Made by a program: the position numbers and the translations under genes. A stretch of DNA of 23,708 nucleotides. Source: a virus. Shown in pieces: positions 390 through 19,448 of this stretch. Position 1 is the first letter of the stretch. Every line of letters begins with the position of its first letter. The stretch lies in the IMG/VR virus record IMGVR_UViG_3300023176_002665, positions 1-23,708 of that record; one strand, given 5' to 3'. The notes under the pieces are model-generated. The model ran no database searches, was not told where the DNA came from, and was given only the letters and a program-made list of their open reading frames with translations.

Positions 390-1004
390 TCAACTGGCAC
401 AGTACCGCATCCGATTAACCATGCCATCAAATATACCTGAAATCATGAAATCAAAGGCAAGAGAGTATCTACAACCGTTAGAAAGATTCTTTGCTACTGA
501 GTGTTTCAAACATGATGGAAATAATAGTAACATTCCATTGCGACACTCGATTGTACCCGTATGTGTGTTGCGTCTGTGTACTTCATCATAAGAAAGTACA
601 GTAAAGAACTTACCAAATGGTCCACCATTATCATGATGAAACTGTATTGCTCCCTGCTCAGATGGATCTACATCGATGTAATAAACGCCACTGATTAACG
701 AGTTGGAGTGATGATGAATTGGTGTGCTATCTCCAGGACTATTCTTATTCAACCATGCTCCATGGCACACCAGTTCATATTGCTTACTGATGCACATCTC
801 ATCGTATGCATATACTTCAGCGTGATACATTATCTTACTCTTGATAGTATCAAATCCAGGTGATAGTTGTAGGTCAGTCACACTCACCCATGCATCATCG
901 TCTGCATTTCGATACATTGGAAGGTCATACAGATATTGTCTCTCTTGTGGAGAAATATCAAACTCATCAATGTATATTGGTGTAGGAAATAAATCAATAA
1001 TCAC
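390..1004 (-). CDS. 2OG-Fe(II) oxygenase-like protein (oxygenase A)
   Basis: This 204-residue protein is a probable Fe(II)/2-oxoglutarate-dependent dioxygenase, an enzyme class that hydroxylates a substrate using O2 and 2-oxoglutarate. The core is seen as PIHHHSNSLISGVYYIDV (residues 95-112), the form typical of the small phage and bacterial family of putative 2OG-Fe(II) oxygenases with an H.H....SGVYY signature. A distal metal histidine follows at H168 in LFPSCLKHS, and R179 in CRYSLAFDF is the likely 2-oxoglutarate-binding arginine. The usual acidic second ligand of HxD is not obvious; the window has H97-H98-H99 and N101 instead. The start is GTG at 1004, overlapping the upstream oxygenase by 11 bases, so translation is probably coupled. 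It is the last gene before the terminator at 354-377. The substrate is unknown. Confidence 0.7.
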   Translation of the reverse strand: MIIDLFPTPIYIDEFDISPQERQYLYDLPMYRNADDDAWVSVTDLQLSPGFDTIKSKIMYHAEVYAYDEMCISKQYELVCHGAWLNKNSPGDSTPIHHHSNSLISGVYYIDVDPSEQGAIQFHHDNGGPFGKFFTVLSYDEVHRRNTHTGTIECRNGMLLLFPSCLKHSVAKNLSNGCRYSLAFDFMISGIFDGMVNRMRYCAS

Positions 1005-1509
1005 TGTTCAAAGTCTTATACCAAGTTGCAATAGTGTAACGTTTTCCAGATGTTACTGGTTCAACTCCATGGATAATATATCTTCCTTGAAATAATATCA
1101 TATCACCTTTTTTAGGTTGGATGAGTTCACCATCAACGTATGTTTGTCCACCTTCAAATTCATCATTCAAATACAGAATAGATGTCCAAGTATGATAATA
1201 GAAGTCTTGATGATGGGGTTGATGTATTGGTGCTTCCCATTCTACCAAATGACTATAGTTGATAAATGCTAATTTGTCATGCTCTTTTACAGCACTCGTA
1301 TGCTTAGACATAATAAACCTAAGATAGTCTGCTGATGTTTGAGGTTCATCAACAAATGTCGATTCTGCTACCTTTTGAATATTCAAAGTCTTTCTGTTTG
1401 CAAACTGAGAACCATAAAGGGGGAAGTATGTTTTATGATATGAAATACACCAATCACAGAAGTCTGGAGGTAAAAAGTTCTCATAATAAAATACTTCTTT
1501 ATTGGACAT
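994..1509 (-). CDS. 2OG-Fe(II) oxygenase, prolyl-4-hydroxylase-like (oxygenase B)
   Basis: This 171-residue protein has the complete facial triad of the superfamily: H100-Q-D102 (HHQDFYYH), distal H147 (GRYIIHGVEP) and R157 (GKRYTIATWY) for 2-oxoglutarate. The segment SILYLNDEFEGGQTYV (110-125) and KKGDMILFQG are typical of the P4Hc/2OG-FeII_Oxy_3 double-stranded beta-helix fold. The size fits a single catalytic domain with no added substrate-binding region. It starts at an ATG and overlaps the end of oxygenase C by 11 bases and the start of oxygenase A by 11 bases, so the three are probably translated as one unit. Prolyl hydroxylation is the family precedent, but the substrate cannot be read from the sequence. 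Confidence 0.85.
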   Translation of the reverse strand: MSNKEVFYYENFLPPDFCDWCISYHKTYFPLYGSQFANRKTLNIQKVAESTFVDEPQTSADYLRFIMSKHTSAVKEHDKLAFINYSHLVEWEAPIHQPHHQDFYYHTWTSILYLNDEFEGGQTYVDGELIQPKKGDMILFQGRYIIHGVEPVTSGKRYTIATWYKTLNSDY

Positions 1510-2056
1510 CAGTTATCACCACGTTGAAAGACATTGTTTTTCTAATTATATCAGATTGATGAGGAGTTACACCATGCATCATATGTGATGGGAACAATAT
1601 TACATCACCTGCTTGTATTTTTGGATAGTATATGTTGGACTCCTTTATTCTAGTAATTATCTTCACCCAAGGTTTAGTAAACTGAGTGTGATTTGCATCA
1701 AAGAAATAAAACTTAGAGAAATCTGGTTCATCATTCAAGAAGATAACTGCTGCAATATCACAGTCATCATGCCAATGAACCTCTTGAAAACTACCCCGTT
1801 CATACATGTTAATCCAGGGATGTAGAATCTTAGCAGAGAATGTAACGCCAAGTTCTTCAGACAACATGCGTAGTGGATTGACCAAAATATCCTGATAGTC
1901 ATTGATATTTAAGGCAGTCCTATTTACCTTGCAGAGATTACCCCAGGTAAAGTTCTTGTCTACTACATTGTCCTTTGGAATACGATCTAAAAGTTTATCA
2001 AACTCTGGCATCCTATAGTGAAAGTAAAAACCAGTATTAGAAATAACTTCTTTCAT
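1499..2056 (-). CDS. 2OG-Fe(II) oxygenase-like protein (oxygenase C)
   Basis: In this 185-residue protein the core begins EVHWHDDCDIAAVIFLND (residues 92-109), with H96-D-D98 as the HxD pair (H94 is also nearby). It continues with GDVILFPSHMMHGVTPH, where H161 is the distal ligand, and IRKTMSFNV, where R172 is the 2-oxoglutarate contact. The pattern matches phage 2OG-Fe(II) dioxygenases of the type often labelled 'putative 2OG-Fe(II) oxygenase' in T4-like cyanophages. The gene overlaps oxygenase D by 20 bases and oxygenase B by 11. There is no signal peptide or membrane segment, so it is presumably cytoplasmic. The substrate is unknown. It is clearly divergent from B, so this is not a recent duplication. 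Confidence 0.8.
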   Translation of the reverse strand: MKEVISNTGFYFHYRMPEFDKLLDRIPKDNVVDKNFTWGNLCKVNRTALNINDYQDILVNPLRMLSEELGVTFSAKILHPWINMYERGSFQEVHWHDDCDIAAVIFLNDEPDFSKFYFFDANHTQFTKPWVKIITRIKESNIYYPKIQAGDVILFPSHMMHGVTPHQSDIIRKTMSFNVVITDVQ

Positions 2057-2582
2057 AACGAAAATCTAGATTCAATGTGTGTCTCTTATCAGCAGTTTGC
2101 GGATAAGTACCATGCCAAGTTTTTGCGGGAAATATTAAAATGTCTCCATCTTCAGGACCAAATAAGTTTAACTTATTTTCGTACCAATATACAAACGTCC
2201 CATGTTTTTGAGGTACTGGTTCAGGTTCTACATCCAGGTAAATTACTGTGCAGATGTCATCATTATCATTATGTCTGTGCATTGTATGATAAGCACCCTT
2301 TTCACCATAAACAGTCCAAGCAGATGCTAAGTGCAATTTAGTTCTATCTAAAATAAGAGAATCTGTAATAATATCCTTCACGGTTTCAATAACAGTATCA
2401 ATCATTGGAGTTATTACAGGTTCCATTAAATGATGCTGCAATCCCCCAACAGTTGAAATGTCGAGCACTGTAGGGTCTAACGGTGGAAGTTTAGACTTTC
2501 CTACAGCAGCATCGACATCTAACTTAAATTGATTTGTTAGTTCAGGACTCAGTTTATAATGATAAAAATAATCTTGATGCAT
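2037..2582 (-). CDS. 2OG-Fe(II) oxygenase-like protein (oxygenase D)
   Basis: In this 181-residue protein the catalytic region reads HTMHRHNDNDDICTVIYLDV (residues 99-118), with H104-N-D106 as the metal pair. GDILIFPAKTWHGTYPQ follows with H157 as the distal ligand, then KRHTLNLDF with R167 for 2-oxoglutarate. The N-terminal 90 residues (Pro-rich, then helical) probably form the cap over the beta-helix core. The layout matches oxygenase C, suggesting C and D belong to one subfamily. It starts 5 bases after the stop of the fibre gene at 2588-3289 and has no promoter of its own, so it should be co-transcribed with that fibre. Confidence 0.8.
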   Translation of the reverse strand: MHQDYFYHYKLSPELTNQFKLDVDAAVGKSKLPPLDPTVLDISTVGGLQHHLMEPVITPMIDTVIETVKDIITDSLILDRTKLHLASAWTVYGEKGAYHTMHRHNDNDDICTVIYLDVEPEPVPQKHGTFVYWYENKLNLFGPEDGDILIFPAKTWHGTYPQTADKRHTLNLDFRYERSYF

Positions 2583-2587
2583 AATAA

Positions 2588-3289
2588 TTAAGGTGCGTAT
2601 TCTGTTGCTGTAATGACTATATTAGCACGCCATCCCCAGTTGGTGTTATCACCACTAGAATATCCGAAACGAATATTATTAACACCAGACGTTTCTTGCT
2701 TACACTCGAATCCGTAATAAACTTCACTGGTAGTGTTAGGAACGTCAATAACCCTCCATTGTCTAACACTCATGTCATTAGTATCATAACCATTACCAGG
2801 GCGATGACCACCACCAGCAACTCGCCATCTGCTGCCACTACTAGGACCACAAGAGGTAATATTTGTTCTGCTACCATCTCTAGTGGCACCAAGAATGAAG
2901 ATTGTGTTGTTACCGCACTGCTCGTTTAGAGGAATCATGTAGTCAACTACGATAATACTATCAGCAGCAGTTGGAGTAATATATACTCGATAATCACTGT
3001 TAACCTCAATCATACTGGTTGAGTTGTGAGTATCAGTTGCAGTAGAAATCTTATACTTAAATTGTCTGATTACTCCACCACCACCGCCACTACCAGCGAT
3101 TGCTGCCCAAGCAGAACCATCATTAACTTTAATTGCTCCATCATCGGTATCATATACCATTTTACCTTGAGCGTTTGCAGGTAAGTTTGCAGTAGTGAAC
3201 AATGGTAACTGTACACCAGATGAAGCATCTAAAGTGGCACAACTAACTGTATTAGTTGCAGTCACTGCTCCTACATTTAACTGTCCCAT
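2588..3289 (-). CDS. Tail-fibre-like protein with C-terminal beta-sandwich
   Basis: This 233-residue virion protein is probably a short tail fibre or fibre tip. The N-terminal module LPLFTTANLPANAQGKMVYD (28-47) followed by NDGSAWAAI is a divergent copy of the 'GTTAQRP...G.iR.Nt...W' module seen in the other fibre genes of the window. A glycine linker (GSGGGGG, about 66-72) leads into a beta-strand-rich domain (75-233) ending WGWRANIVITATEY, which may be the receptor-binding head. A Shine-Dalgarno (AAGGA) sits just before the ATG at 3289, and a late-promoter-like ACTAAATA lies at 3318-3325. It is sandwiched between the small fibre-associated genes and four oxygenase genes. The exact function is inferred. 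Confidence 0.65.
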   Translation of the reverse strand: MGQLNVGAVTATNTVSCATLDASSGVQLPLFTTANLPANAQGKMVYDTDDGAIKVNDGSAWAAIAGSGGGGGVIRQFKYKISTATDTHNSTSMIEVNSDYRVYITPTAADSIIVVDYMIPLNEQCGNNTIFILGATRDGSRTNITSCGPSSGSRWRVAGGGHRPGNGYDTNDMSVRQWRVIDVPNTTSEVYYGFECKQETSGVNNIRFGYSSGDNTNWGWRANIVITATEYAP

Positions 3290-3316
3290 CTTTAGTCCTT
3301 ATTCGGTAACTTTTTA

Positions 3317-3658
3317 CTATTTAGTTCCAGGTTCAACTCCACTGAGTCCACCTTCACCACCTTTTTCGTTAGAACCGCCGTGCATAGTGTTTTCATCATA
3401 TGGATGAATACCAACAGTTATATTTTCTGTTTCTTGTGCTGGGTCAAAGGATTGTGTCTTTTGTTCTGGAAGAAGAATGTAATCAATACTTTCTTCAAAC
3501 TCTTTAATTTTGGCAATAGTTGCCTGAATCTCTTCTAGAGTTGGCATTGGTCTGGGGTCATTCCACTCAAATAAACCATGTGATAATGACCATTTAGCGC
3601 CAGGTCTTAACAAGTTCACCGCAGCATCAAATGCAACAAATTCATACCTGTGTTTCAT
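3317..3658 (-). CDS. Small fibre-associated protein, XkdW-like
   Basis: This 113-residue protein starts MKHRYEFVAFDAAVNLLRPG and contains GLFEWNDPRPMPTLEEIQ (residues 28-45), a 'W.d..P.Pt.eEi' pattern found in small tail-associated proteins such as XkdW, often encoded beside fibre genes. The C-terminus is flexible and rich in E, G and N. It shares a 4-base ATGA overlap with the upstream 123-residue gene, so the two are translationally coupled. A role in fibre assembly or as a small accessory is possible; the family assignment rests on motif resemblance only. Confidence 0.55.
   Translation of the reverse strand: MKHRYEFVAFDAAVNLLRPGAKWSLSHGLFEWNDPRPMPTLEEIQATIAKIKEFEESIDYILLPEQKTQSFDPAQETENITVGIHPYDENTMHGGSNEKGGEGGLSGVEPGTK
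3318..3325 (-). promoter_or_regulatory. Late-promoter-like element ACTAAATA
   Basis: ACTAAATA on the minus strand, 29 bases before the fibre start at 3289. It overlaps the stop codon (3317-3319) of the preceding gene, as several other late elements in this window do. The first bases differ from the T4 consensus TATAAATA, so this is a weaker call. Confidence 0.4.
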
Positions 3659-4026
3659 TGTTCTTCAATCTCCCATCGTTGTTCTGTTTCATTCCAATCC
3701 CAGTGAGTGTTACCTTCAGTTTCTGGTTTTGGTACTGGAGGTTGCCAGTCATAGTTTTCATCTAATGTCCAACTTGCGTATGGTTGGGGGTTAATGAAAA
3801 CATCCCCTTCTGCATGATATCTATCTCCAATACAGGCAAATCTTCCTCTGATATTATGATTATATGAGGTTTTTTTCCACCTAGTATTTTCACCATGAAG
3901 TTTCTTCAAATGCAATTCTGCACGATACTCATCTACTTCACAGTATGCGTCCATTTCATAAATGTCATCAATTTTACTAACACGAAGGACGTAATTATCA
4001 TCGTCTAATTGTGCATAGTGTGCCAT
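3655..4026 (-). CDS. Conserved cyanophage fibre-associated protein (MAHYAQLD family)
   Basis: This 123-residue protein starts MAHYAQLDDDNYVLRVSKID and contains WKKTSYNHNIRGRFACIGDR (residues 50-69), then PQPYASWTLDENYDWQPPVP and WDWNETEQRWEI. I recognise this order (AHFAkLD start, 'W.qTSYN.niR.nfA.iG', 'P.PYpSW.Ld...W..P.P', C-terminal W-D-E-...W) as a small protein frequently carried by marine T4-like phages next to fibre or structural genes; its role is not established. A late promoter (4058-4065) lies 32 bases upstream and the gene is coupled by ATGA to the next. It is co-located here with tail genes and oxygenases. Confidence 0.7.
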   Translation of the reverse strand: MAHYAQLDDDNYVLRVSKIDDIYEMDAYCEVDEYRAELHLKKLHGENTRWKKTSYNHNIRGRFACIGDRYHAEGDVFINPQPYASWTLDENYDWQPPVPKPETEGNTHWDWNETEQRWEIEEQ

Positions 4027-4057
4027 GTTTATCCAGAAAACCTAAGACTTATGTACT

Positions 4058-4065
4058 TATTTATT
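4058..4065 (-). promoter_or_regulatory. T4-type late promoter AATAAATA
   Basis: AATAAATA on the minus strand, 32 bases upstream of the start at 4026, in the 42-base gap after oxygenase E. It matches the NATAAATA late consensus of T4-like phages. Confidence 0.6.
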
Positions 4066-4068
4066 GAT

Positions 4069-4644
4069 TTAAGTGACACAGGAATCGAAAGCGTGATGTA
4101 CCAAATAACCGTCCCTCCTAACAAAGTGCATAAAGATTTGATGATAATAAGTATTATGATCTCCCTTCAATGGTTCTCTCCAGTGTGGTAAATCCATGCC
4201 CCGATAGAGTACAGCGTCACCTGGTTTTGTTACCATTTCATGAACCTCACCATTTTCCAGTTCAAAGTATATTGGCCAATCATAATCAGCGTTTGTACTG
4301 ATATGCATAGAGACGCTAATCTCACATGATTCTCTATCAGTATGCCGAGACAAATCCTGACCCTTAAAGTAAAACCTATCGTAGTAATACGTTGGATACA
4401 ACTTTTCGTGTATCACCTTCTCTACAACATCCTTCACATGATAGTAAATATCCCTAAACTTAGGATGATTATACCGAGCGAGACTACCTACAACTTGTAG
4501 TTCTTCGCTGTAAGATGTCATCTTACCAGTGTGTCTATCATACCCAAACTTACCTCTTTCCATTGGTGGAAATTCAAGAACACCACCAAACTGAAATAAA
4601 TTTTTTAACTGAACTAAACTCCATTCACCTTTAGTAATCTTCAT
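4069..4644 (-). CDS. 2OG-Fe(II) oxygenase-like protein (oxygenase E)
   Basis: This is 191 residues from the ATG at 4644. That start is preferred over the in-frame ATG at 4671 because it overlaps the TGA of oxygenase F by one base and is preceded by GAGGTGG, a good ribosome-binding site. The metal pair is H101-T-D103 in GQDLSRHTDRESCEIS. KPGDAVLYRGMDLPHWREPL supplies the distal H154. The 2-oxoglutarate-binding arginine is not in the canonical position; the conserved tail YYHQIFMHFV takes its place, as in a distinct marine-phage subfamily. Tyrosine-rich strands (YYYDRFYF) precede the core. The substrate is unknown. This gene is the least canonical of the six, together with oxygenase A. Confidence 0.7.
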   Translation of the reverse strand: MKITKGEWSLVQLKNLFQFGGVLEFPPMERGKFGYDRHTGKMTSYSEELQVVGSLARYNHPKFRDIYYHVKDVVEKVIHEKLYPTYYYDRFYFKGQDLSRHTDRESCEISVSMHISTNADYDWPIYFELENGEVHEMVTKPGDAVLYRGMDLPHWREPLKGDHNTYYHQIFMHFVRRDGYLVHHAFDSCVT

Positions 4645-5198
4645 CACTTCCACCTCGGACCAATAATCCAACCAACAAGACTTCTTCGAGTTCCAGAATG
4701 TATTTTTCTAACTCGATGTCTTGTTCTACTATCAAAAACAATTATAGTTCCCCTCATTTTAGGGGCAATATACATATGCCCAGACTCGTTTAGTAACTGG
4801 AACTCTCCACCTTCATATTCGGATGGGTCTGAAAGTTGAAGGACTACCGATAACTTTCTACATTTTTCTTGCTCTAGTGCTTCGATACCAGCATCTTGAT
4901 GCCAATTATAGTATTGACCAGGTTCATAGATAGTATATTGCATGTCACCACCGTCAAATCCTTCAATATCATATTGAAAGTTTGCTCTGTTTGCCATCAA
5001 AACATATGACATACACAGTCCAGCAATCCAGTGATTCTCTTTGAACCAAGATGTTTTACTGTCTCGAATCTTTAGATTCACACCAGCGCGAACTACAGCA
5101 GTCGATGCAGCATTTTCAAACGTCTCTGCTTCTCTTGCAATGATGTCAACAATCTCTGTTGGGATGTTGGTTTCAAACCACGTTGTTTGATATGTCAT
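4644..5198 (-). CDS. 2OG-Fe(II) prolyl-4-hydroxylase-type oxygenase (oxygenase F)
   Basis: This is the most canonical oxygenase in the window (184 residues). It has YNWHQDAG with H100-Q-D102, KLSVVLQLSDPSEYEGGEFQ (115-134), RGTIIVFDSRTRHRV with distal H161, and GTRRSLVGWIIGP with R171/R172 for 2-oxoglutarate. The order and spacing match the P4Hc/PKHD-type hydroxylases of cyanobacteria and T4-like cyanophages. Hydroxylation of a protein side chain is the family precedent; the target here is unknown. It starts at 5198 and is divergent from the carbamoyltransferase, with only 33 bases between the two starts. It is coupled to oxygenase E through TGATGA. Confidence 0.88.
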   Translation of the reverse strand: MTYQTTWFETNIPTEIVDIIAREAETFENAASTAVVRAGVNLKIRDSKTSWFKENHWIAGLCMSYVLMANRANFQYDIEGFDGGDMQYTIYEPGQYYNWHQDAGIEALEQEKCRKLSVVLQLSDPSEYEGGEFQLLNESGHMYIAPKMRGTIIVFDSRTRHRVRKIHSGTRRSLVGWIIGPRWK

Positions 5199-5231: not shown

Positions 5232-6839
5232 ATGGAAGATGTCTTGAGAAATCTAGGTATTAGTAGAGTTCACAATTCTGCAGTTACTTTACTACAAAAC
5301 GGTCAAATTGTCTACCATTTGGAAAACGAGAGGTTATCTGGTAGAAAGTATGATGCATTTCCATTTCAATGTCTAACACAGTTAGATACTAAGGATTTGG
5401 ATAATATTTGTATTGCTGGGGTTGGTAAAACAACTCCAGTGGATTGTTTTGTTGATGATGATGCATACAGTCTATATGTAAAGACGAAAGAAAACAAGTA
5501 TGACACGAAAGTACATGACCTTTCGTTATCTCATCATGAACTACATGCAGCACATGCCTTTTACAATTCTGGATTTGATGAGGCAATCTGCATTGTAAAA
5601 GATGGCATGGGTTCTGATGTTCCATTGAACGGTGATATGTTTCAACCAGGAACATATGGAAGAGAATTAACTACAACATTTACAGCATCATATCCTGCTA
5701 AGTTTGATGTTGTGGACAAACACGTTGCTGTACCCTTTGAGGCAAATCACAGGTTTGGTGATGTACTTATTTCCAACAATCTTGGTGAGGGTATGGCATT
5801 TCAAAAGACATCTATGGCATTTGGTTTTCATGAACTAGATGCAGGAAAAGTAATGGGAATATCATCTTATGGAGAAGAACTGCCAATCTCAATCTATCGA
5901 GATGGATTGATTGACAATGGATTGTTCTACATTGGTCGTGACTTACATGATACTGGCGTTAATTATATTTTTGAAGATTTCCAAACTAAAGCAGATTTTG
6001 CCTTCACTTTGCAGAAACAAACTCAGGAGTATGTTGGGCAGTACATTATCAGTATGATTGAAAAAACTGGATGCAAAAATGTATGTTTATCTGGAGGATT
6101 CTTCCTTAATTGTGTAGCAAACTACTATTATCTGAGCATTCTTCCTGAAGATGTAAATCTGTATATTGAACCAGTATCGAGTGATGCTGGCACATCAATT
6201 GGTGCAGCAAAATATATTTGGTACAAAAAGACTGGAGATACAACTAAGAGACCACTGACAAGTTTATATCTTGGACCAGAACGATATGTCTGTCCAAAGG
6301 GTAAGTATGTAACTGACGAAGATGTTGCTGACCTGTTAATTGACGGTAAGATTGTTGCTATCTACCAGGGAAGGTCAGAGGCAGGACCAAGGGCACTTGG
6401 CAATCGTTCTATTCTCTTTGACCCTAGAAATGCACAGGCAAAAGATATTATTAATCGTATCAAAAAGAGAGAATCATTCAGACCTTTTGCAGGCACTGTA
6501 TTAGCAGAACATGCAGATGAATACTTTGATATGCGAGGACTAAAAGAGAGTCCTTTCATGATGTATGCAGTGGAAGTATTGTCAGATGAAATACCTGGCA
6601 TTACACACGTTGATTATAGTTGTAGGATTCAAACTGTCACTAAAGAACAGAATCCCCACTATTACAATTTAATCAAATGTTTCCATGAAAAAACAGGAGT
6701 TCCTATTTTGTTCAATACATCCTTCAACCTTGCGGGCGAATGTATTGTAGAAACTCCTGAAGATGCTATCAGAACATTAGAAAATTCTGATATTGATTAT
6801 GTGTATTTTGCTGAGTTTAAGGTGTTAAGTAACGGATAA
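5232..6839 (+). CDS. Carbamoyltransferase, NodU/CmcH/TobZ family
   Basis: This 535-residue enzyme is predicted to move a carbamoyl group from carbamoyl phosphate, through an ATP-activated carbamoyladenylate, onto a hydroxyl of a sugar or similar acceptor. The N-terminal Kae1-like domain shows LGISRVHNSAVTLL, LSHHELHAAHAFYNSGFDEA (H101, H102, H105), MGISSYG (209-213), LSGGFFLN (287-) and EPVSSDAGTSIGAA (313-326). The C-terminal domain shows GRSEAGPRALGNRSIL (380-395), RPFAGTVL and FNTSFNLAGE. Length and order are complete for the family. The start is uncertain: ATG at 5232 is used, but TTG at 5244 has GGAAG five bases before it and would give the usual 'M-x-x-LGIS' beginning. It is the only plus-strand gene and lies between oxygenases and a fibre; its 3' end overlaps that fibre by 23 bases. 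Confidence 0.9.
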   Translation: MEDVLRNLGISRVHNSAVTLLQNGQIVYHLENERLSGRKYDAFPFQCLTQLDTKDLDNICIAGVGKTTPVDCFVDDDAYSLYVKTKENKYDTKVHDLSLSHHELHAAHAFYNSGFDEAICIVKDGMGSDVPLNGDMFQPGTYGRELTTTFTASYPAKFDVVDKHVAVPFEANHRFGDVLISNNLGEGMAFQKTSMAFGFHELDAGKVMGISSYGEELPISIYRDGLIDNGLFYIGRDLHDTGVNYIFEDFQTKADFAFTLQKQTQEYVGQYIISMIEKTGCKNVCLSGGFFLNCVANYYYLSILPEDVNLYIEPVSSDAGTSIGAAKYIWYKKTGDTTKRPLTSLYLGPERYVCPKGKYVTDEDVADLLIDGKIVAIYQGRSEAGPRALGNRSILFDPRNAQAKDIINRIKKRESFRPFAGTVLAEHADEYFDMRGLKESPFMMYAVEVLSDEIPGITHVDYSCRIQTVTKEQNPHYYNLIKCFHEKTGVPILFNTSFNLAGECIVETPEDAIRTLENSDIDYVYFAEFKVLSNG

Positions 6840-8001
6840 TAACAACACCCGATCCGCCAGCACCAGATGCACCAGAGGGCCAGGGGTTTCCTGCCCCACC
6901 TCCACCTCCACCGCCGAGGTTGGTGGCGCCGTTTTCTCCTCTACCGTTACCACCACGGTTTGGTGCTTCACCACCATGTCCGCCACCACCAGAACCGCCG
7001 TTGCCACCTCTACAAGAACCAGGGTGACCACCGCCGCCACCGCCGCCGCCAGCGTAGGTTACAGAAGAACCAGAGAGGGAACTAGCGCGACCATTACCCC
7101 CAGGCGCTTGACGACCATTACCACCAGTCGCTCCATTCCCAGACGCTCCACCACCACCAGAACCTGAATAACATGCCTGATTGGGGTTAGGACCACCAGA
7201 ATTTCCATGTCCGTTAGAACCAGAAAGACCAGGTGCTCCAGGTTGAGTAGCGGATCCACCAGAACCAGGGCTGCCGCCACCACCTCCAGCACCACCACCA
7301 GAACCTCCAGGACCACCAGGACGGTTACCAGGACCAGACGCACCGTATCCGCCGCCGTATGCTACCAAACCATCAAATGTAGAGGGTGAACCATTTCCTC
7401 CAGGTTGTTGACTGCCTGGCGATGCTGCTGCTCTTCCTCCACCACCAACACTAATGGGATAAGTACCATCTTGTAAGGTTCTTCCTGTTACTTGAACCCA
7501 TCCGCCTGCTCCACCACCAGAACCTCCATCAGTTCCACCAGAATCGGGACCAGCATTTCTACTACCACCGCCAGCACCACCGCCGACTAGGAGAACATCA
7601 ACATCTACAGGACCACCAGAAACAGTCATACTACCATCACCAGTGAATCTGAGAATATTATATCCGCCAGAACTTGATGGAGTAACAGAACCAGTAGTAG
7701 TAACTTCTAATGGAATACCACCAGCATCTGCCCAAGCAGAACCTATCCAAATTTGAATAACTTCTTCTTGAGTATTGTAGATAACCTGACCAAGACCTAC
7801 TCCAGTTAAAGCATCTCTCTGTGCAGTTGTATAGTTTGGAAGAACAAATCTACTGCTAATAGTTGCATCATCAATTGTAGTATCACCAGTAAGATTAGCA
7901 TTACCATCATATGTCAAGTTACCAGCACTATCAAAGGTTACTTCAGGACCAGACGCGCCGACCTGCAAACCTTTAATTTTATCAACTTTAATTTCAGACA
8001 T
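6817..8001 (-). CDS. Glycine-rich tail fibre / adhesin
   Basis: The 394-residue protein has an N-terminal attachment part (1-130) carrying LPNYTTAQRDALTGVGLGQV and IGSAWAD, the fibre module shared across the window. A long glycine-rich domain follows (about 134-385) with many GGG and PGG runs, framed by VDVDVLLVGGGAGGG at the start and GSGVVIIRY at the end. These borders are typical of glycine-rich domains in phage fibres. By analogy with T-even gp38 adhesins, glycine-rich loops may bind the receptor. Segments such as QPGAPGLSGSNG are loosely collagen-like. The DNA is GC-rich and repetitive. It has a late promoter at 8024-8031. Its stop lies inside the 3' end of the convergent carbamoyltransferase gene. 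Confidence 0.75.
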   Translation of the reverse strand: MSEIKVDKIKGLQVGASGPEVTFDSAGNLTYDGNANLTGDTTIDDATISSRFVLPNYTTAQRDALTGVGLGQVIYNTQEEVIQIWIGSAWADAGGIPLEVTTTGSVTPSSSGGYNILRFTGDGSMTVSGGPVDVDVLLVGGGAGGGSRNAGPDSGGTDGGSGGGAGGWVQVTGRTLQDGTYPISVGGGGRAAASPGSQQPGGNGSPSTFDGLVAYGGGYGASGPGNRPGGPGGSGGGAGGGGGSPGSGGSATQPGAPGLSGSNGHGNSGGPNPNQACYSGSGGGGASGNGATGGNGRQAPGGNGRASSLSGSSVTYAGGGGGGGGHPGSCRGGNGGSGGGGHGGEAPNRGGNGRGENGATNLGGGGGGGAGNPWPSGASGAGGSGVVIIRYLTP

Positions 8002-8023
8002 TTTCTACTAATGACCTTTTGAT

Positions 8024-8031
8024 TATTTATA
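8024..8031 (-). promoter_or_regulatory. T4-type late promoter TATAAATA
   Basis: Perfect TATAAATA on the minus strand, 23 bases before the start at 8001, placed one base beyond the stop of the fibre gene at 8033. Confidence 0.7.
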
Positions 8032-8032
8032 G

Positions 8033-8070
8033 TTATTTGACCCAGAGGAATCCGTTAGATGCACCTAAAG
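8033..8070 (-). repeat. 38-base exact repeat, copy 1 (partner 9814-9851)
   Basis: Positions 8033-8070 and 9814-9851 are identical. They encode the last residues (ending SNGFLWVK) of fibre paralogues 1 and 3, including the stop codons. Such identity favours recombination between the genes. Confidence 0.85.
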
Positions 8071-8899
8071 TGTCTTCACGGAAACCGCAGTTGCCACCAG
8101 ACTCAGGATGTCTACCCCAAGCAAAATATGTACCACCAGAAGTATGGTGGTCACCAAAACCTCTAGTACCAGTGTTAGGGTTTCTATCATCTAAAGTTCC
8201 TTCATAAGTTAATGAAACTCTAGTTCTAGCGTTTTGATTACTAGCACTAGCAAGTAAGTCAACGGTTGCACTGCTGTCAATAAATACATTCTTATTAAAT
8301 CCAGTTGCTTCCATCCAATAACGTGTAGGACCTGTATATGTTGAACCTTGAACAAGTGCATTGATCCAAGTATCTGCAAACTTTTCAGTGCTAGTAGCAC
8401 TTATATTAGGTCCATTACTGCCAGTAATACGAACAGCACTATTCGTCATATGGTCTTGGCAAGTTGCTGTTCTAACACTAGCACATAAAACCCAACCTCC
8501 ACCATTTCTATCATTATCTACATATACATTATATGCAGTTTCACCTGCTGGTTGAATCCAATAGTTCCCAGTAGGTAATCCTGCATCATTGATTGCATTG
8601 CCATCTGTTGCTGGATTTGCTTGAGTCCCAAGGTTAGTTGCTCCAGCAGGAACACGAAATACATTAAACCAAGCAGTTCCATCATACACTTCCACATATC
8701 GAGTTTCAGTGTTAGTCCTTATCATTCCTGCTTGAGGGGATGCTGGTCTTTGAGCAGTTGTCCCTTGAGGAAAAGTAAAGGCACTCATTCTGTTCCTAGT
8801 TAAAGAACCAGATACGACAATATTTTCGCCACTCTCCATAATAATATGTCGATTGGTTGCTACCGAACCTTCTATTTCTCCAACTCTAATAATACTCAT
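8033..8899 (-). CDS. Tail fibre with fibrinogen-like C-terminal domain, paralogue 1
   Basis: In this 288-residue protein, residues 41-65 carry the fibre module FPQGTTAQRPASPQAG. Residues 101-288 form a fibrinogen-like domain opening with AGLPTGNYWIQP, YNVYVDNDRNGGGWVLCA; the G.Y.I.P....VY.D....GGGW pattern is the hallmark of fibrinogen-related and similar secreted recognition domains. The end (TRGFGDHHTSGGTYFAWG..., CGFRED..., GFLWVK) is nearly the same in the next two genes, with cysteines C139, C147 and C271 kept. This is probably the receptor-binding head of a tail fibre. It has its own late element at 8919-8926. N-terminal residues 1-40 are unlike the two paralogues. Confidence 0.75.
   Translation of the reverse strand: MSIIRVGEIEGSVATNRHIIMESGENIVVSGSLTRNRMSAFTFPQGTTAQRPASPQAGMIRTNTETRYVEVYDGTAWFNVFRVPAGATNLGTQANPATDGNAINDAGLPTGNYWIQPAGETAYNVYVDNDRNGGGWVLCASVRTATCQDHMTNSAVRITGSNGPNISATSTEKFADTWINALVQGSTYTGPTRYWMEATGFNKNVFIDSSATVDLLASASNQNARTRVSLTYEGTLDDRNPNTGTRGFGDHHTSGGTYFAWGRHPESGGNCGFREDTLGASNGFLWVK
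8112..8173 (-). repeat. 62-base exact repeat, copy 1 (partner 9001-9062)
   Basis: Positions 8112-8173 and 9001-9062 are identical, including synonymous sites. They encode the block from TGTRGFGDHH to FAWG in paralogues 1 and 2. The identity of silent positions points to recent conversion or duplication, not only protein-level selection. Confidence 0.88.
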
Positions 8900-8918
8900 T
8901 TTTTCTGAGAGTTTCTTT

Positions 8919-8926
8919 TATTTATT
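8919..8926 (-). promoter_or_regulatory. T4-type late promoter AATAAATA
   Basis: AATAAATA on the minus strand, 20 bases before the start at 8899, overlapping the stop codon (8922-8924) of the previous fibre gene. Confidence 0.6.
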
Positions 8927-9791
8927 TCACCCAAAGATAACCATCAGATGCACCTAAAGAGTCTTCTCTAAATCCGCAGTTACCACCCGACTCGGGATGC
9001 CTACCCCAAGCAAAATATGTACCACCAGAAGTATGGTGGTCACCAAAACCTCTAGTACCAGTATTGGGGTTTCTATCAGAGATACCACCCTGATAACTTA
9101 ATGTAACTCTAGTTCTCTCGTTTTGGTCGCTAGCACTATCGTTTAGGTTGACAGATGCATTACTGTCAACAAACATATCTTTGTTAAAATCAATTGCCTC
9201 TAACCAATAACGTGTAGAACCTGTATATGTCGAAGCATTTACAAGTGCTTGAATCCAAGTATCTTCCATTTTATAAGTAGCATCCTGTGATAGTCTCGGT
9301 CCAATGCTGTTAGCAACACGAACAGAACTTCTTGTCATATGGTCTTGACAAGATGATGTTCTAACTGTAGCACAAAGAATCCAACCTCCACCATTTCTAT
9401 CATTATCTACAAACATCCGATACATTGATGCTCCTGGTGGATGAATATACCAGAGACCCGTTGGCAATCCTGCATTTTGAATTTCCTGACCGTTTTGTGC
9501 TGGGTTGCTAGCACTACCAACACCCTCATATACTCCACTTGCATCGGTAATCTGTGCCCAATCAGAACCATCCCAATATTCTAAAAGTGCATCAGTTGTA
9601 TTGAATCGCATATAACCTACTGCGGGAGAACCAGGTCTTTGTGCTGTTGTTCCCGTTGGTAATTGATACGCTCCAGTATTACTATGTTGATGAATATCTC
9701 CTTGAACAGACAAACCATGTCCAACAGGAACAGTTATTTGTCCCAATGTAGTTGGAAGTCCACCCAAGTGTGATACGATTAACTTACTCAT
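8922..9791 (-). CDS. Tail fibre with fibrinogen-like C-terminal domain, paralogue 2
   Basis: In this 289-residue protein, residues 44-66 hold LPTGTTAQRPGSPAVGYMRF, followed by YWDGSDWAQI, the shared fibre module. The fibrinogen-like domain spans about 102-289: AGLPTGLWYIHPPG, MFVDNDRNGGGWILCA, SCQDHMTRSSVRV, then the conserved end CGFREDSLGASDGYLWVK. It differs from paralogue 1 mainly in the first 100 residues and in scattered positions of the head (for example LWYIHPPG instead of NYWIQPAG), which could alter receptor fit. A late element lies at 9811-9818. The ribosome-binding site is weak (TGAG). Confidence 0.75.
   Translation of the reverse strand: MSKLIVSHLGGLPTTLGQITVPVGHGLSVQGDIHQHSNTGAYQLPTGTTAQRPGSPAVGYMRFNTTDALLEYWDGSDWAQITDASGVYEGVGSASNPAQNGQEIQNAGLPTGLWYIHPPGASMYRMFVDNDRNGGGWILCATVRTSSCQDHMTRSSVRVANSIGPRLSQDATYKMEDTWIQALVNASTYTGSTRYWLEAIDFNKDMFVDSNASVNLNDSASDQNERTRVTLSYQGGISDRNPNTGTRGFGDHHTSGGTYFAWGRHPESGGNCGFREDSLGASDGYLWVK
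8946..8987 (-). repeat. 42-base exact repeat, copy 1 (partner 9838-9879)
   Basis: Positions 8946-8987 and 9838-9879 are identical and encode the block around GNCGFREDSLGAS of paralogues 2 and 3. With the other two repeats, every pair of paralogues shares an exact run in the last 150 bases. Confidence 0.85.
9001..9062 (-). repeat. 62-base exact repeat, copy 2 (partner 8112-8173)
   Basis: Second copy of the repeat described at 8112-8173. The copies are 889 bases apart in direct orientation. Confidence 0.88.
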
Positions 9792-9810
9792 CTCAGTAGA
9801 TAGTTTTTTC

Positions 9811-9818
9811 TATTTATT
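9811..9818 (-). promoter_or_regulatory. T4-type late promoter AATAAATA
   Basis: AATAAATA on the minus strand, 20 bases before the start at 9791, overlapping the stop codon (9814-9816) of paralogue 3. Same geometry as at 8919-8926. Confidence 0.6.
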
Positions 9819-9851
9819 TGACCCAGAGGAATCCGTTAGATGCACCTAAAG
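9814..9851 (-). repeat. 38-base exact repeat, copy 2 (partner 8033-8070)
   Basis: Second copy of the 38-base repeat, at the 3' end of paralogue 3, 1781 bases from the first in direct orientation. Confidence 0.85.
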
Positions 9852-10707
9852 AGTCTTCTCTAAATCCGCAGTTACCACCACTTTCAGGATGCCTTCCCCA
9901 AGCAAAATAAGTGCCACTTGAAGTGTGATGGTCTCCAAATCCTCTAGTACCAGTATTAGGACCTCGATCGGATAAACTACCTTCATAACTATTTGATATT
10001 CTGGTCCTAGCATTTTGGTCCTGGGCACTATCGTTTAGGTTGACAGATGCCCCCGAATCAATAAATACGCTCTTATTAAATCCAGTTGCTTCCATCCAAT
10101 ATCTAGTAGACCCAACATAACCAGAGCTAGCAACAAGACGGTTAATCCAAGTGTCTGCCATTTTAGTTGTACTGGTATCGCCAGTTCTAGGTCCAGTAGT
10201 TCCACTAATACGAACAGCATTTCTTGTCATATGGTCTTGACAGGTTGATGTTCTAACTGTAGCGCATAAAACCCAACCTCCACCATTTCTAGTATTGTCC
10301 ACATACATTTCGTATGCTGTTGCTTCACCTTCAGGTTGAATCCAATAGTTTCCACTACCTAATCCAGCAGCATAAATTTGAGTACCATTTAATGCTGGAT
10401 TTTCTTGACTGCCTATTTGTGCAACATTACCACCTGTTCCAATGCTTGAACCAAAACTACCGTCACTATAAATTCTTGGTTCATTCAAAGTTGTATCATA
10501 AAAAAGTTGATAGTCAACAATTCTATCGGCATTATGCATTGCATCCCACTCTGCTGTTGTGCCATATGGCAATAAAAGATGACTAGTTGCTGTAGATGGG
10601 TGTGAAATATGACTCCCTTCTCTAAAATCCAAAACAGTATTGGATGGGATAGTTACGTTATAACTATTTGCTACTAATCCTTGAATTTGAGCAACATTCA
10701 GTTTCAT
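9814..10707 (-). CDS. Tail fibre with fibrinogen-like C-terminal domain, paralogue 3
   Basis: In this 297-residue protein the fibre module is degenerate (LPYGTTAEWDAMHNADRI, residues 46-63, then DTTLNEPRIYSDGSF). Residues about 110-297 are the fibrinogen-like domain: AGLGSGNYWIQPEG, MYVDNTRNGGGWVLCA, TCQDHMTRNAVRISG, ending CGFREDSLGASNGFLWVK. The ATG at 10707 directly abuts the TAA of the 138-residue gene (TAAATG), so translation is coupled and both share one transcript; no late element lies between them. It is probably the first-expressed of the three paralogues, as a receptor-binding fibre subunit. Confidence 0.75.
   Translation of the reverse strand: MKLNVAQIQGLVANSYNVTIPSNTVLDFREGSHISHPSTATSHLLLPYGTTAEWDAMHNADRIVDYQLFYDTTLNEPRIYSDGSFGSSIGTGGNVAQIGSQENPALNGTQIYAAGLGSGNYWIQPEGEATAYEMYVDNTRNGGGWVLCATVRTSTCQDHMTRNAVRISGTTGPRTGDTSTTKMADTWINRLVASSGYVGSTRYWMEATGFNKSVFIDSGASVNLNDSAQDQNARTRISNSYEGSLSDRGPNTGTRGFGDHHTSSGTYFAWGRHPESGGNCGFREDSLGASNGFLWVK
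9838..9879 (-). repeat. 42-base exact repeat, copy 2 (partner 8946-8987)
   Basis: Second copy of the 42-base repeat, 892 bases from the first. It overlaps the 38-base repeat by 14 bases. Confidence 0.85.
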
Positions 10708-11124
10708 TTAGACAACACTCCATGCGCCACCCGATTCAACAGTAACAGTATAACCATTTGCAATAGTGATGGGACCAGCACTCATACCGTTTGCAAACTC
10801 TGAACCAGCAGTAGGTCCAACAGTAAGATTCTCGGAAATAGTTGTAGGATTTGTTCTAATAATGCTATCAGCACCAATAGAAGGACCACCACCAGAAATA
10901 GAACCCCAACCAGGATTTCCAGTTCCGTCATCTGCCTTGTAAATTTCAGCGTTATCGTTATCGCTGTTGAATCTAATTGTACCTACAGAGGGACTGCTAG
11001 GACGTTGTGCAGTTGTTCCTGTTGGTATTCTCAACACACTTTCACCATCTAAGAATGAAAGTGTGTCAACAATTGCTTGTGTGGCAGTGTTAATCTGATT
11101 ACCACTAATTTTTGTGAGTGCCAT
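10708..11124 (-). CDS. Short fibre or fibre-connector protein with the GTTAQRP module
   Basis: This 138-residue protein starts MALTKISGNQINTATQAI and carries the cleanest copy of the shared module, IPTGTTAQRPSSPSVGTIRF (33-52), followed by NSDNDNAEIYKADDG...GWGSI. The C-terminal part (SIGADSIIRTNPTTISENLT, GPITIANGYTVTVESGGAWSVV) is a repetitive beta strand pattern typical of a fibre tip or trimerising 'peg'. It lacks the large head of the neighbouring genes, so it may be a connector or collar on which the paralogue fibres sit; this is inference. A weak late element is at 11147-11154. AAGGAGGA is present but 13 bases from the ATG. Confidence 0.65.
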   Translation of the reverse strand: MALTKISGNQINTATQAIVDTLSFLDGESVLRIPTGTTAQRPSSPSVGTIRFNSDNDNAEIYKADDGTGNPGWGSISGGGPSIGADSIIRTNPTTISENLTVGPTAGSEFANGMSAGPITIANGYTVTVESGGAWSVV

Positions 11125-11146
11125 ATTACTACTGTGTCCTCCTTAG

Positions 11147-11154
11147 TATTTAGA
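11147..11154 (-). promoter_or_regulatory. Late-promoter-like element TCTAAATA
   Basis: TCTAAATA on the minus strand, 23 bases before the start at 11124, overlapping the TAA stop (11150-11152) of the 1320-residue gene. One core mismatch to the T4 consensus. Confidence 0.4.
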
Positions 11155-14100
11155 TAGGCAGTTCTAAAATATGAATGGTATCACTAGATAATGGAGCATC
11201 ACCACCATTAAACACAATATTTGCACCGTTAACATCGACAGTGTAATTAGTTCCAGGAATCTGTGCTACACCATTCAAGAATACAAGGACGGAATCATCA
11301 ACGTGCTGAATACCACCCGCATATGTTGTGATTGCAAATGTCAGAGTATTTCCATCACCAGTATATGTCCTAGTGATATAAGAAGATGCACTGATTCCAC
11401 CACGACCAGTAACAACTAAGTCTCCATCAACTCTTACAGAACCATCTACGTTAACCCTGTAAGAATTATTAGGAGCAGTGCCAATACCGATAATTGTGCT
11501 GTTGTTGTAAGAACTAATATTGATGTCACCAGTATCCGTGAGACCAAACTCTTTCCACGCTCCATTGTAATATATCCAACCAAGCGACTTGCCAGGTGTC
11601 CAGTTGATATTGTAAACAAGATCACCATCAGCGGGCGTAGTGTATCCCGTGATATTAGCAAAAGAGGGTTGTCCGTTTGCATCTTCAGGTGCCAGTAAGG
11701 TTTGCTTAATTACCGTGCCATCCTGATTGTAATAGGAAATTTTCCTTGCTTGCAGGTTGTTAGTGAAGGTAGTGAGTCCTTGGAAGGTAACAGGACCAGC
11801 GAAGATAGATTCTAACTGGTTAGATGCACCACCGATAACCGTGAGTTTGTCGGTAAGAACCAACTCAGAGAATGTCTCAATCGTTGTATTCTCTTCACCA
11901 ACAACATTCAGTTGTGCAATATCTTCGTTTGTAATTTGACCAGTAACAGGGTTAATAACCTGGTTACCAATAAACAGGTCGCCGTTAGAGTTAAGACCAG
12001 AGTAGAAGGCAACACCCGCTTCTTCTTTAATAGACTGAGAGAACTTAATCTGGTCAGCAGATAAGGTCTCTACCTGTGTCTGAGGGAACGCTGTTGAATA
12101 GTTACCAGGACCAAAACCAAGGTATTCAAACGTATGGTTACCAGAACGAAGAATAGAGTGTCTACGTAATTCAACCGCAATGGGTGCAACAGTGCCATCA
12201 TTGTTTTCGCGGATGTTAATCTTACGAGTTTCTTCATCACCAGAACGTGCAGTTAACTCAACACTAGAAAGGCGATTATTAACAGAGTCATAGTTAGGTG
12301 TTGTACCTGGTTGTGTCCAACCAGTATCACTCAAAAGGAATTGTGCTGCTTCCTTAGTAATAGAAAGTTGAGGGTCTTTATTGGGTGTAGGAGTTGCACC
12401 ATCGGTAGCATATACTAGACCGATAGTTTCGTTGTCAGCGACGGATACAGCAGCATCAGGGTCAGCAAGAGGGTTGTCTCTGTCAAACGTAGGATAGACT
12501 TCGTTGACGTTTTGACTGAACTTCCTGTTGTTGAAGTTAGAAGTCGAAGGTGCAATAGATGCACAAAGGAGGGTAAGGTAGTAAATTCCATCTGTAACGC
12601 CTCTCTCAAATTCTTGAACAGTTTCGATGTCGTAGATGTAAAAAGTCTTCGACAAGTTGTAACTAGTAGTGTCACTATTCAGAGGTTGCATTACATAACC
12701 GCTGATAGGATCACGAGGCAGAGGATTAGTCTTATCTTTATCAATTACATAGCGGACACGATAAGTTCTGTCTGCTAAGTCACGACTATCAGGAATCCTC
12801 TTAAGGAAAGTTGTAGGAGTAAAGTTAACCGTATTGTATTGTGTATTTGTAGAAAGTGTTGTATAAATTTCATTGTTAGTGGAACTAACATTCAGATACC
12901 AACCGCCGACTTGGTTTGCAACACCACCAATAGTGTATGTGTTACTATCATATTGAATAGGAGAACCATTTACACCAGCAGACAAACCAGAAACACTAGG
13001 ACCATAAGGAGAAATAGATGCAGACTGAACTGTTGCTTCAGTAGCACCATTTGCTACCAGAAGACAGTTAATTTTATCTGCTACAGCATTAACACCTGTA
13101 CCGTCTTGACGTGCTCCAACTGTGTAACCCTGAACTCTAGTTGTTGGTGGAGATGCTTCGGTTACATATCCATAAAGGTACAATCTTGTTCCAGGAGTGC
13201 CACCTTGTCCAGCAAGTGCAGCGTTGACAACTTTAGTTCTTTGGATGTCAATATTCACCCAGTTAACAGAAGTCTCTTCACCAAAAATAACATTGCCATT
13301 AACAGTTGATGTGTTTGTTGCAGTTAATGTAATGACTCTAGTATTGGTGTTGATAGAACCAACTGTAGCACCAGTTCCAATGCCAGTACCAGTAACAGTC
13401 ATTCCTTGGATAATACCATTTACAGAACCATCATTTGCAAGTGTGATAGTAGATGTAGAATTGGTGCCCGTCGCAGTTGTCGAAATGACGTTAAGTGCTT
13501 TAGGTGGAATAATGTGTGTAATTTCGCCTGCTTTATCCTTCGAGAATGCCTTTGCCTTAAATCCAGCGGAGCGAAGTGCAGTATTACCGAAGTTGGAGTT
13601 AGAGTTAGTAATCGACATGTCACCACCACTCTCAGCGGTGAAGTGTGTGCCGTAACCAACAGCGAACACCGAAACTGCCTGAATGAAAGCATCATTGGAA
13701 CACTTAATGTGCTCGTGTGCCCAACCTTTACGATACTCAGCAAAACCGTCTAAGTGAGCACCATCACCAGCAGTTGCTACATCATAGCTACCAGTAGAAG
13801 CATTATATCTTACAAACGCTCTATCGTCTTTCTGCAGAGACAGACCAGTAAACTGTGCAACAACCATCGATTTGAAACCTGTTGCTTTACTGCCATCTGC
13901 GTGCATACCATTCATGCCCCAGACACTTCTCAGGGACAAGTTAAACGCATAAGGAGACGCAGAGTCAACAGTATCAATCTCAGTCTTTACACTGATGTTG
14001 GACCCAACGGCATTTCCTGTTGGTTCTCCTTGCATTTGGTAAGTAAAAACGTTACCAGATGCGGACGTGACTGTGAAAGATCCGTTATAAAGTCCTGCAT

Positions 14101-15112: not shown

Positions 15113-15133
15113 TTCCTACGCTGCTTTTTAAGT

Positions 15134-15141
15134 TATTTATG
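15134..15141 (-). promoter_or_regulatory. T4-type late promoter CATAAATA
   Basis: CATAAATA on the minus strand, 22 bases before the start of the 1320-residue gene at 15112. Confidence 0.6.
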
Positions 15142-15149
15142 AGAGTGAA

Positions 15150-16640: not shown

Positions 16641-16646
16641 GGTTAA

Positions 16647-18719: not shown

Positions 18720-18935
18720 TCATTCAAAAATAGGTTGGGATTTAAAGTAGTTTTGTCTCATGCGTTCAAGAAGTTTAGGGTCATTACCATAATAACCCAT
18801 ATTCATGTAAACACAATCGATATATCGCAAATCTTCACGGTCTGCATCTAGTGTAAAAGAATCACAATAGTACAAAATCTCTTGAGGGACTTGCACTTGT
18901 TTGTAATCATGCTCAATATAATACGGGACAGTCAT
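18720..18935 (-). CDS. Small hypothetical protein, 71 residues
   Basis: It starts MTVPYYIEHDYKQVQVPQEI and is rich in tyrosine and acidic residues (DADREDLRYIDCVYMNMGYY), ending in a basic helix, PKLLERMRQNYFKSQPIFE. There are no membrane segments or known motifs. Its ATG shares a 4-base overlap (ATGA) with the end of the 169-residue gene, so it is translated by coupling. It belongs to the small-gene block under the promoter at 20829-20857 unless an internal promoter exists. Confidence 0.7.
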   Translation of the reverse strand: MTVPYYIEHDYKQVQVPQEILYYCDSFTLDADREDLRYIDCVYMNMGYYGNDPKLLERMRQNYFKSQPIFE

Positions 18936-19441: not shown

Positions 19442-19448
19442 TAATCAT
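19074..19448 (-). CDS. Acidic conserved cyanophage hypothetical protein, 124 residues; overprinted
   Basis: It starts MINVKDNGDGSFIIEWDEND, then PQESILNDWTKEDFIDFF. I recognise the 'inVkdNgDGSF.IeWDENDP.ES..NdWTe.DFI' beginning from small proteins common in T4-like cyanophages; their function is unknown. The remaining 80 residues are acidic and less ordered. Codon third positions are strongly C-biased (GAC, TTC, AAC, ATC, TAC), which supports true coding. The start (ATGA) overlaps the stop of the 121-residue gene. The frame overprints the basic N-terminal part of the 18932-19441 ORF. Confidence 0.75.
   Translation of the reverse strand: MINVKDNGDGSFIIEWDENDPQESILNDWTKEDFIDFFNYRLGLEKSQEEYVGKNAEKFGGKSQETSGISEATEKDYEDFWEGDDITEQEDSNYIQATNEETFWELPPLKEGGFPTKDDRIWEG

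Follow-up and report, generated by a model that had tools for sequence, protein, structure and literature searches.

Among the accessory genes of marine phages, those for oxygenases dependent on 2-oxoglutarate and Fe(II) (2OG oxygenases) rank with the most numerous, and a role in host metabolism is the usual explanation for them. Here, six such genes, OX1 to OX6, are described in a DNA stretch of 23,708 nucleotides (IMG/VR record IMGVR_UViG_3300023176_002665, positions 1 to 23,708; hereafter the window), a 23.7-kb fragment of a T4-like cyanophage. A first-pass annotation had pointed out the six genes and noted that T4-like cyanophages are known to carry oxygenases of this kind, in line with the published repertoires (PMC3037559; PMC9602691). 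There, T4-GC 101 and 155, to which OX1 and OX3 are orthologous, belong to the cyanophage core as dioxygenases, and T4-GC 615 is listed as a 'ferrochelatase'-domain protein (PMC3037559). Up to 24 oxygenase genes per genome have been published, the number found in S-SCSM1 (PMC9602691). The published repertoire (T4-GC 101, 155, 412 and 615, the 24 genes of S-SCSM1 and 10 of S-CREM1) comprises the same families as the window and shows the same strong divergence within a genome (PMC3037559; PMC9602691; PMC9964418). The papers count accessory genes; linkage to fibres or adhesins, late-promoter placement and an oxygenase-like 'ferrochelatase' are not described in the passages considered.

The conserved cassette

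The closest described systems are the blocks SSSM5_041-049 of S-SSM5 (NC_015289) and their counterparts in S-CAM8 (KU686203) and S-TIM4 (NC_048015). They hold the same six oxygenases, two small genes and a carbamoyltransferase in the same order as the window, likewise after Gly-rich and fibre genes. The window differs from all three by a short fibre gene inserted between S1 and OX4. Many IMG/VR contigs also carry the set in this order. Judged from gene content and order, the six oxygenases, the two small proteins and the O-carbamoyltransferase belong to one cassette that is conserved in a group of T4-like cyanophages and lies in their late region, at its fibre/adhesin end. Its members in the window are the following.

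390-1004, minus strand: OX1, 2OG oxygenase of the PF13759/TIGR02466 type (PF13759, 74 bits; T4-GC 101 orthologue in S-SSM5)
994-1509, minus strand: OX2, 2OG oxygenase (PF13640, 47 bits)
1499-2056, minus strand: OX3, 2OG oxygenase (PF13759, 58 bits; T4-GC 155 orthologue)
2037-2582, minus strand: OX4, 2OG oxygenase (PF13759, 34 bits)
2588-3289, minus strand: short fibre-like protein, restricted to close relatives of the window
3317-3658, minus strand: S1, small protein (phrog_21526; weak sub-threshold XkdW match), kept in the cassette
3318-3324, minus strand: late-promoter-like CTAAATA box, 28 nt before the start at 3289, kept in six of six close relatives
3655-4026, minus strand: S2, small protein (phrog_7759), kept in the cassette and also found beside OX6 and OX5 in IMG/VR contig L028
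4069-4644, minus strand: OX5, predicted 2OG-oxygenase fold (phrog_2954 match, 9e-64; 'ferrochelatase' in PHROGs and in relatives)
4644-5198, minus strand: OX6, 2OG oxygenase, PKHD/prolyl-hydroxylase-like (PF13640, 59 bits; T4-GC 412 orthologue)
5232-6839, plus strand: O-carbamoyltransferase of the NodU/TobZ/GdmN type, divergent from OX6 (open frame from 5187, likely ATG at 5232)

The oxygenase set is not new, as it was already present in sequenced relatives (S-SSM5 was published in 2010), where annotation partly hides it. In S-SSM5 and S-TIM4, OX1, OX3 and OX6 are labelled 2OG oxygenase, OX2 DNA endonuclease, OX4 TPR domain protein and OX5 ferrochelatase. The first-pass annotation had called six oxygenases in 5 kb striking. 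Clustering does exceed chance, with runs of at least four 2OG genes in 11 of 21 surveyed genomes (random-placement mean, 0.2), but the number has precedents in S-SCSM1 and in the runs of eight to nine genes of Syn9 and S-SM1. What is new here is the clustering of oxygenases near the main fibre, the linkage to Gly_rich_2 proteins, the late-promoter placement and the counts of OX5 pairing and fusion. Our preferred reading, a tentative one of less than even confidence, is that the cassette serves late post-translational hydroxylation of the phage's own adhesin and fibre proteins.

Families, motifs and folds

By family, motif and fold, the six genes are distinct 2OG oxygenases with predicted catalysis. 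All six open frames were found on the minus strand where they had been reported. Five of them (OX1, OX2, OX3, OX4 and OX6) exceed the curated Pfam cut-off of 27 bits for 2OG-Fe(II) oxygenase families, while OX5 is recognised by an invariant HxD...H motif and its predicted fold. OX1 also passes the curated TIGR02466 cut-off of 62.5 with 66.8; OX3 (49.4) and OX4 (20.6) lie below it. PADLOC matches were to generic 2OG models listed as CRISPR-associated and give no evidence for defence.

The core motif that had been read from the sequence (H-x-D or a variant, a distal His and mostly an Arg about ten residues later) was largely recovered. OX2 (H100-x-D102...H147...R157) and OX6 (H100-x-D102...H161...R171) have the canonical form, invariant across all aligned orthologues. 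H101-x-D103...H154 of OX5 is equally invariant across orthologues, and the Arg at +10 is absent there. OX1, OX3 and OX4 show the variant, an invariant H-x-H...H...R with D or N two residues past the second His in most sequences; either that second His or the D/N may be the iron ligand. The Arg about ten residues after the distal His is invariant in OX1-OX4 and OX6.

Pairwise identity among the oxygenases is about 18-28%; because of this strong divergence, the set is not a recent amplification, in agreement with the first-pass annotation. Comparison with close relatives gave dN/dS values of 0.02-0.26, which means purifying selection on all six. The overlaps between neighbouring oxygenase genes measure 11, 11, 20 and 1 nt and are as tight as reported. 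In the S-TIM4 record, the OX2 orthologue (L021:12378-12905) has an in-frame duplication of 15 residues of the G-G-x-T strand (GGNTIIEGEKIPPKK repeated).

Fold modelling covered OX5 and OX4, chosen for their weakest sequence support; the fold of OX1, OX2, OX3 and OX6 is assigned by Pfam family. Both models gave oxygenase-like folds, so the structure check proposed with the first-pass annotation did not refute its reading. OX4 was modelled as a double-stranded beta-helix (DSBH) with a predicted local distance difference test score (pLDDT) of 87, and each of the 50 best solved structures listed for it is either a 2OG-Fe(II) oxygenase or an uncharacterised protein of this kind. They include a Pseudomonas EF-Tu prolyl hydroxylase (nearest), the collagen prolyl hydroxylase of PBCV-1 and PHD2, with template modelling (TM) scores of about 0.65-0.70. 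By sequence, the nearest solved structures are PKHD/P4H enzymes for OX6 and bacterial prolyl 4-hydroxylases (P4Hs) for OX2, whereas OX1 is closest to two uncharacterised solved proteins. Several of the prolyl/PHD-type and PKHD-type hydroxylases in the PDB nearest to OX2 and OX6 (by sequence) and to OX4 (by fold) act on proteins. The viral collagen prolyl hydroxylase vCPH of PBCV-1 (5c5t) and bacterial P4Hs (4iw3, 3itq) resemble the window's enzymes in fold and, for OX2 and OX6, in sequence. In contrast to those systems, no collagen-like substrate was identified in the window, and the activity of the OX proteins is predicted.

The resemblance of OX4 to an enzyme solved with EF-Tu bears on a metabolic explanation. 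Consumption of 2-oxoglutarate could alter the nitrogen status of the host, its NtcA control or its succinate supply, as in the consumption model of Sullivan 2010 (PMC3037559), or the enzymes could hydroxylate host EF-Tu or another translation factor. However, six separately conserved active sites are unnecessary for merely draining 2-oxoglutarate, and the late timing and fibre linkage described below are left unexplained. This explanation is considered improbable.

OX5 and its pairing with OX6

The existing label of OX5 conflicts with the present analysis. No match to a ferrochelatase Pfam family was obtained for OX5 or six relatives, and OX5 had zero Pfam matches of any kind at E values up to 10. 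Its model (pLDDT 77, about 90 in the core blocks) matched solved structures at E values of about 1e-6 to 1e-4 and TM scores of 0.4-0.6. The 50 best listed belong to the same two groups as those of OX4, 2OG-Fe(II) oxygenases and uncharacterised proteins of this kind, with AlkB and prolyl hydroxylases on top. Relatives of OX5 gave sub-threshold PF13532 matches. Compared profile to profile, OX5 matched neither OX6 nor OX1/3/4 significantly (probabilities 0.15% and 2%), and an OX5 profile search against the PDB gave no match. Since no profile match connects it to the other oxygenases, the assignment of OX5 is based on fold, invariant motif and the weak PF13532 signals and not on direct homology.

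OX5-type genes were further examined in 80 IMG/VR loci recruited solely with the OX5 homologue of the Pelagibacter phage Mosig. A partner, defined as another 2OG profile match at most 700 nt away or sharing the open frame, was found in 71 of the 80 (adjacent in 59, same frame in 16, both in 4). Some of the nine loci lacking a partner end at a contig edge. OX5-type and OX6-type domains are fused in single proteins of ACG-2014f (362 aa) and S-SCSM1 (453 aa). This adjacency and fusion make it probable that the two enzymes, OX5 and OX6, function together. On one IMG/VR contig (L027:79-2668), the pair is tandemly duplicated in the order OX6-OX5-OX6-OX5.

Because of the OX5 model, the motif and the pairing, the 'ferrochelatase' auxiliary gene phrog_2954 of marine viruses is probably an oxygenase, as modelled for one member, OX5. 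This reassignment bears on what has been published about the ecology of marine viruses and their seasonal 'ferrochelatase' genes. In seasonal marine viromes, phrog61 and the 'ferrochelatase' phrog2954 were enriched and co-occurred (PMC11561400). These are the same PHROGs as OX6 and OX5; what was described there as a ferrochelatase plus an oxygenase would here be two oxygenases, sometimes fused.

AlkB as the best fold match of OX5, together with the PF13532 signals of its relatives, could also point to nucleic acids. AlkB-like or TET-like enzymes might modify or repair DNA or RNA of the phage or of its host, perhaps with carbamoylation as a second step, as is the case for 5-carbamoyloxymethylcytosine. 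A 5-hydroxymethylcytosine carbamoyltransferase is encoded on a phage-type contig (PMC8670742), and a repair role was proposed for the Syn9 genes (PMC2984593). Nonetheless, the Syn9 homologues adjoin uvsX and uvsY (PMC2984593), whereas the window's set adjoins late fibre genes, and the Tet_JBP matches of the oxygenases fall below the cut-off. A role on nucleic acids is given little credence.

Late-promoter boxes

The late promoter of cyanophages is given as NATAAATA (PMC2984593). A late box was defined as a NATAAATA-like sequence 10-35 nt before a start, and CTAAATA was accepted by us as a variant. Such boxes precede 9 of the 24 minus-strand starts in the window, against 0.3 expected: those of gp5, the structural protein, the main fibre, the small fibre, two adhesins, the Gly-rich protein, S2 and the short fibre. 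By itself, CTAAATA shows no enrichment in the window; only its position before gene starts makes it informative. S2 has a AATAAATA box 31 nt upstream, which recurs in S-TIM4 and S-SSM5. In S-CAM8, CTAAATA lies ahead of ATGGCACACTACGC, which resembles the S2 start; the annotated start is elsewhere, and the box was not counted. In L028, late boxes occur at 2 of 13 starts, neither of them an oxygenase.

S2, the short fibre, the Gly-rich gene and the fibre genes have the features of T4-type late transcription units. As S2 and the short fibre, with their boxes, head the run S2-S1-short fibre-OX4-OX3-OX2-OX1, these oxygenases are probably expressed late with the fibres. The run, with or without the short fibre, would accordingly be transcribed from T4-type late promoters. 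The boxes ahead of the S2-to-OX1 run support the coordinated expression that the overlaps had suggested, although OX6-OX5 lack such a box.

Linkage to fibres and Gly-rich adhesins

In the window, gp5 is followed by four tRNAs, the virion structural protein, two tail fibres, a small fibre gene, the adhesin-like paralogues, the Gly_rich_2 protein, the carbamoyltransferase and the oxygenases.

6817-8001, minus strand: glycine-rich adhesin-like protein (Gly_rich_2, PF21722), late box 22 nt upstream, proposed substrate
8033-11124, minus strand: three tandem adhesin-like paralogues and the small fibre gene
11150-17969, minus strand: main tail fibre (phrog_529), second tail fibre (phrog_693) and virion structural protein (phrog_692)
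20861-23386, minus strand: gp5 (baseplate hub)

The first-pass annotation had seen the oxygenases as interleaved with tail-fibre genes. This applies to the protein at 2588-3289, the only fibre-like one within 390-5198, where two small open frames lie as well. The main fibre genes (6817-17969) lie on the far side of the opposite-strand carbamoyltransferase.

Over whole records, 2OG genes were counted via phrog_81, 61, 2954 and 274, with phrog_529 as the fibre landmark. Of 236 2OG genes in 20 genomes, 110 were no more than 20 kb away from the main fibre, against 50 expected; none of 20,000 circular shifts gave as many. Part of this set had been chosen for resemblance to the window, and the count was repeated on nine genomes chosen by the fibre alone. 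There, 51 of 113 genes lay within 20 kb (24 expected), and eight of the nine genomes were above expectation (Wilcoxon p 0.004); the genomes are mutually related, which makes the p-values of fibre linkage optimistic. The neighbourhoods are thus not random, as the enrichment near the main fibre and the ordered cassette in S-SSM5, S-CAM8, S-TIM4 and many IMG/VR contigs indicate.

For linkage to the Gly-rich adhesin, PF21722 was searched in 22 records and matched in 13. In 10 of these, including L028 and the Pelagibacter phage Mosig, the next 2 kb downstream contain a 2OG gene, against 1.4 expected genome-wide and 2.5 under a local null of ±20 kb (reached in 0 of 20,000). The strand of the oxygenase was not required to agree, and in S-RIM50 and ACG-2014b the first oxygenase is on the other strand. 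Likeness to the window had guided the choice of several of these records; of the five picked on the fibre alone, three have a 2OG gene within 2 kb. Runs of 2OG genes are longer in records with Gly_rich_2 (median 5.5 versus 2, p 0.005). L028 carries, in order, a Gly-rich protein, S2, OX6, OX5, a small gene and a collagen-like fibre. A collagen-specific role is not favoured, as collagen-like repeats were found in 3 of the 80 OX5-recruited loci. In Mosig, a Gly_rich_2 protein and one small gene are followed by six oxygenase-type genes, and pelagiphage HTVC023P has a pair of 2OG genes with a 'ferrochelatase', separated by one gene from an annotated tail protein.

Alternatively, the gp5/tRNA/fibre side may be a hot spot of recombination and insertion that gathers unrelated accessory genes, and where oxygenases with separate functions lie near fibres incidentally. 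A hot spot near gp5 with tRNAs was named by Sullivan 2010, S-M1 lacks the cassette, and OX4, the short fibre and the carbamoyltransferase are gained or lost between relatives; OX4, for instance, has no match in loci L023 and L024, though its flanking genes are there. This explanation has to account for a gene order held across about 50-65% protein identity, a Gly_rich_2-to-2OG linkage above the local null, a run headed by late boxes, and similar arrays adjoining adhesins or tail genes in Pelagibacter phages. It is regarded as unlikely, although it is the main competitor of virion hydroxylation.

Proposed hydroxylation of the virion

Under the preferred reading, late promoters would ensure that OX4-OX1 are made together with the fibre proteins, OX5 and OX6 would work as partners, and the Gly-rich adhesin would be the first candidate substrate. 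Hydroxylation might then tune the stability or receptor binding of the adhesin and fibres. The families and motifs, the DSBH models, the likeness to protein hydroxylases, the conserved cassette, the fibre and adhesin linkage, the late boxes and the pairing all suggest this reading. In particular, the late promoters and the repeated linkage to Gly-rich adhesins suggest, short of proof, that the virus uses these enzymes for the chemical finishing of its own fibres. S-TIM4, which carries the cassette, offers a further indication. Its host-adaptation mutations were mostly in fibre and baseplate genes, and ORF23, a 2OG gene adjoining a fibre gene near gp5, was one of two functionally assignable non-virion genes mutated (PMC6224464).

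Several points weigh against virion hydroxylation. The authors of the S-TIM4 study tied ORF23, which is outside the six, to nutrient response (PMC6224464). Catalysis, substrate and virion modification are all putative for these proteins, and the first iron motif of OX1/3/4 is non-canonical. OX6 has no clear late box before it in the window, which leaves OX6-OX5 without one. S-M1, the closest relative by DNA, has the fibres and lacks the cassette, which is therefore dispensable. The Gly_rich_2 proteins of S-SCSM1 and P-SSM2 have no adjacent 2OG gene, several 2OG genes per genome are far from fibres, and accessory genes of many kinds gather near gp5, tRNAs and fibres. Finally, the sampled genomes are related, and some were selected by similarity to the window.

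The carbamoyltransferase raises the question of other targets. Both its Carbam_trans_N and Carbam_trans_C domains were matched, which places it among NodU/TobZ O-carbamoyltransferases, and its sequence is related to antibiotic and small-molecule O-carbamoyltransferases. Given this kinship, its position divergent from OX6 and the late boxes, the enzymes may hydroxylate and carbamoylate glycans or proteins of the host surface late in infection, e.g., to block superinfection or aid progeny release. Yet the gene is on the opposite strand and absent from arrays such as that of S-RIM50, and OX2, OX4 and OX6 are closest to prolyl/PHD-type hydroxylases. Modification of the host surface is judged quite unlikely. 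Relatives of the carbamoyltransferase are present in 140 phage records, several copies being found in some of them.

If fibre-side arrays do act on virion adhesins, the host-metabolism explanation would be wrong for a large share of such oxygenases, and host recognition by phages would depend on post-translational hydroxylation. A wider form of this proposal is doubtful: a dedicated late virion-maturation system of marine T4-like cyanophages and some pelagiphages, in which a 2OG array including the misnamed 'ferrochelatase' and its phrog_61-type partner would hydroxylate the phage's own Gly-rich receptor-binding adhesin and fibres.

Other features of the window

The public DNA closest to the window is that of S-M1, QB2, WH25-B, S-IOM18, S-H25 and S-CAM8, with about 79-83% identity over 38-41%. 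An Rfam scan of the window returned tRNAs only. The C-terminal ends of the three tandem adhesin-like paralogues (8033-10707, minus strand) are nearly identical, and two of the three have weak, sub-threshold fibrinogen-C (Fibrinogen_C) matches. Two candidate open frames on the minus strand (18932-19441 and 19074-19448) overlap by about 370 nt in different frames, one product being Lys/Ser/Thr-rich and the other acidic. Each is matched in about 180-200 cyanophage records, and both occupy the same place in S-RIM8.

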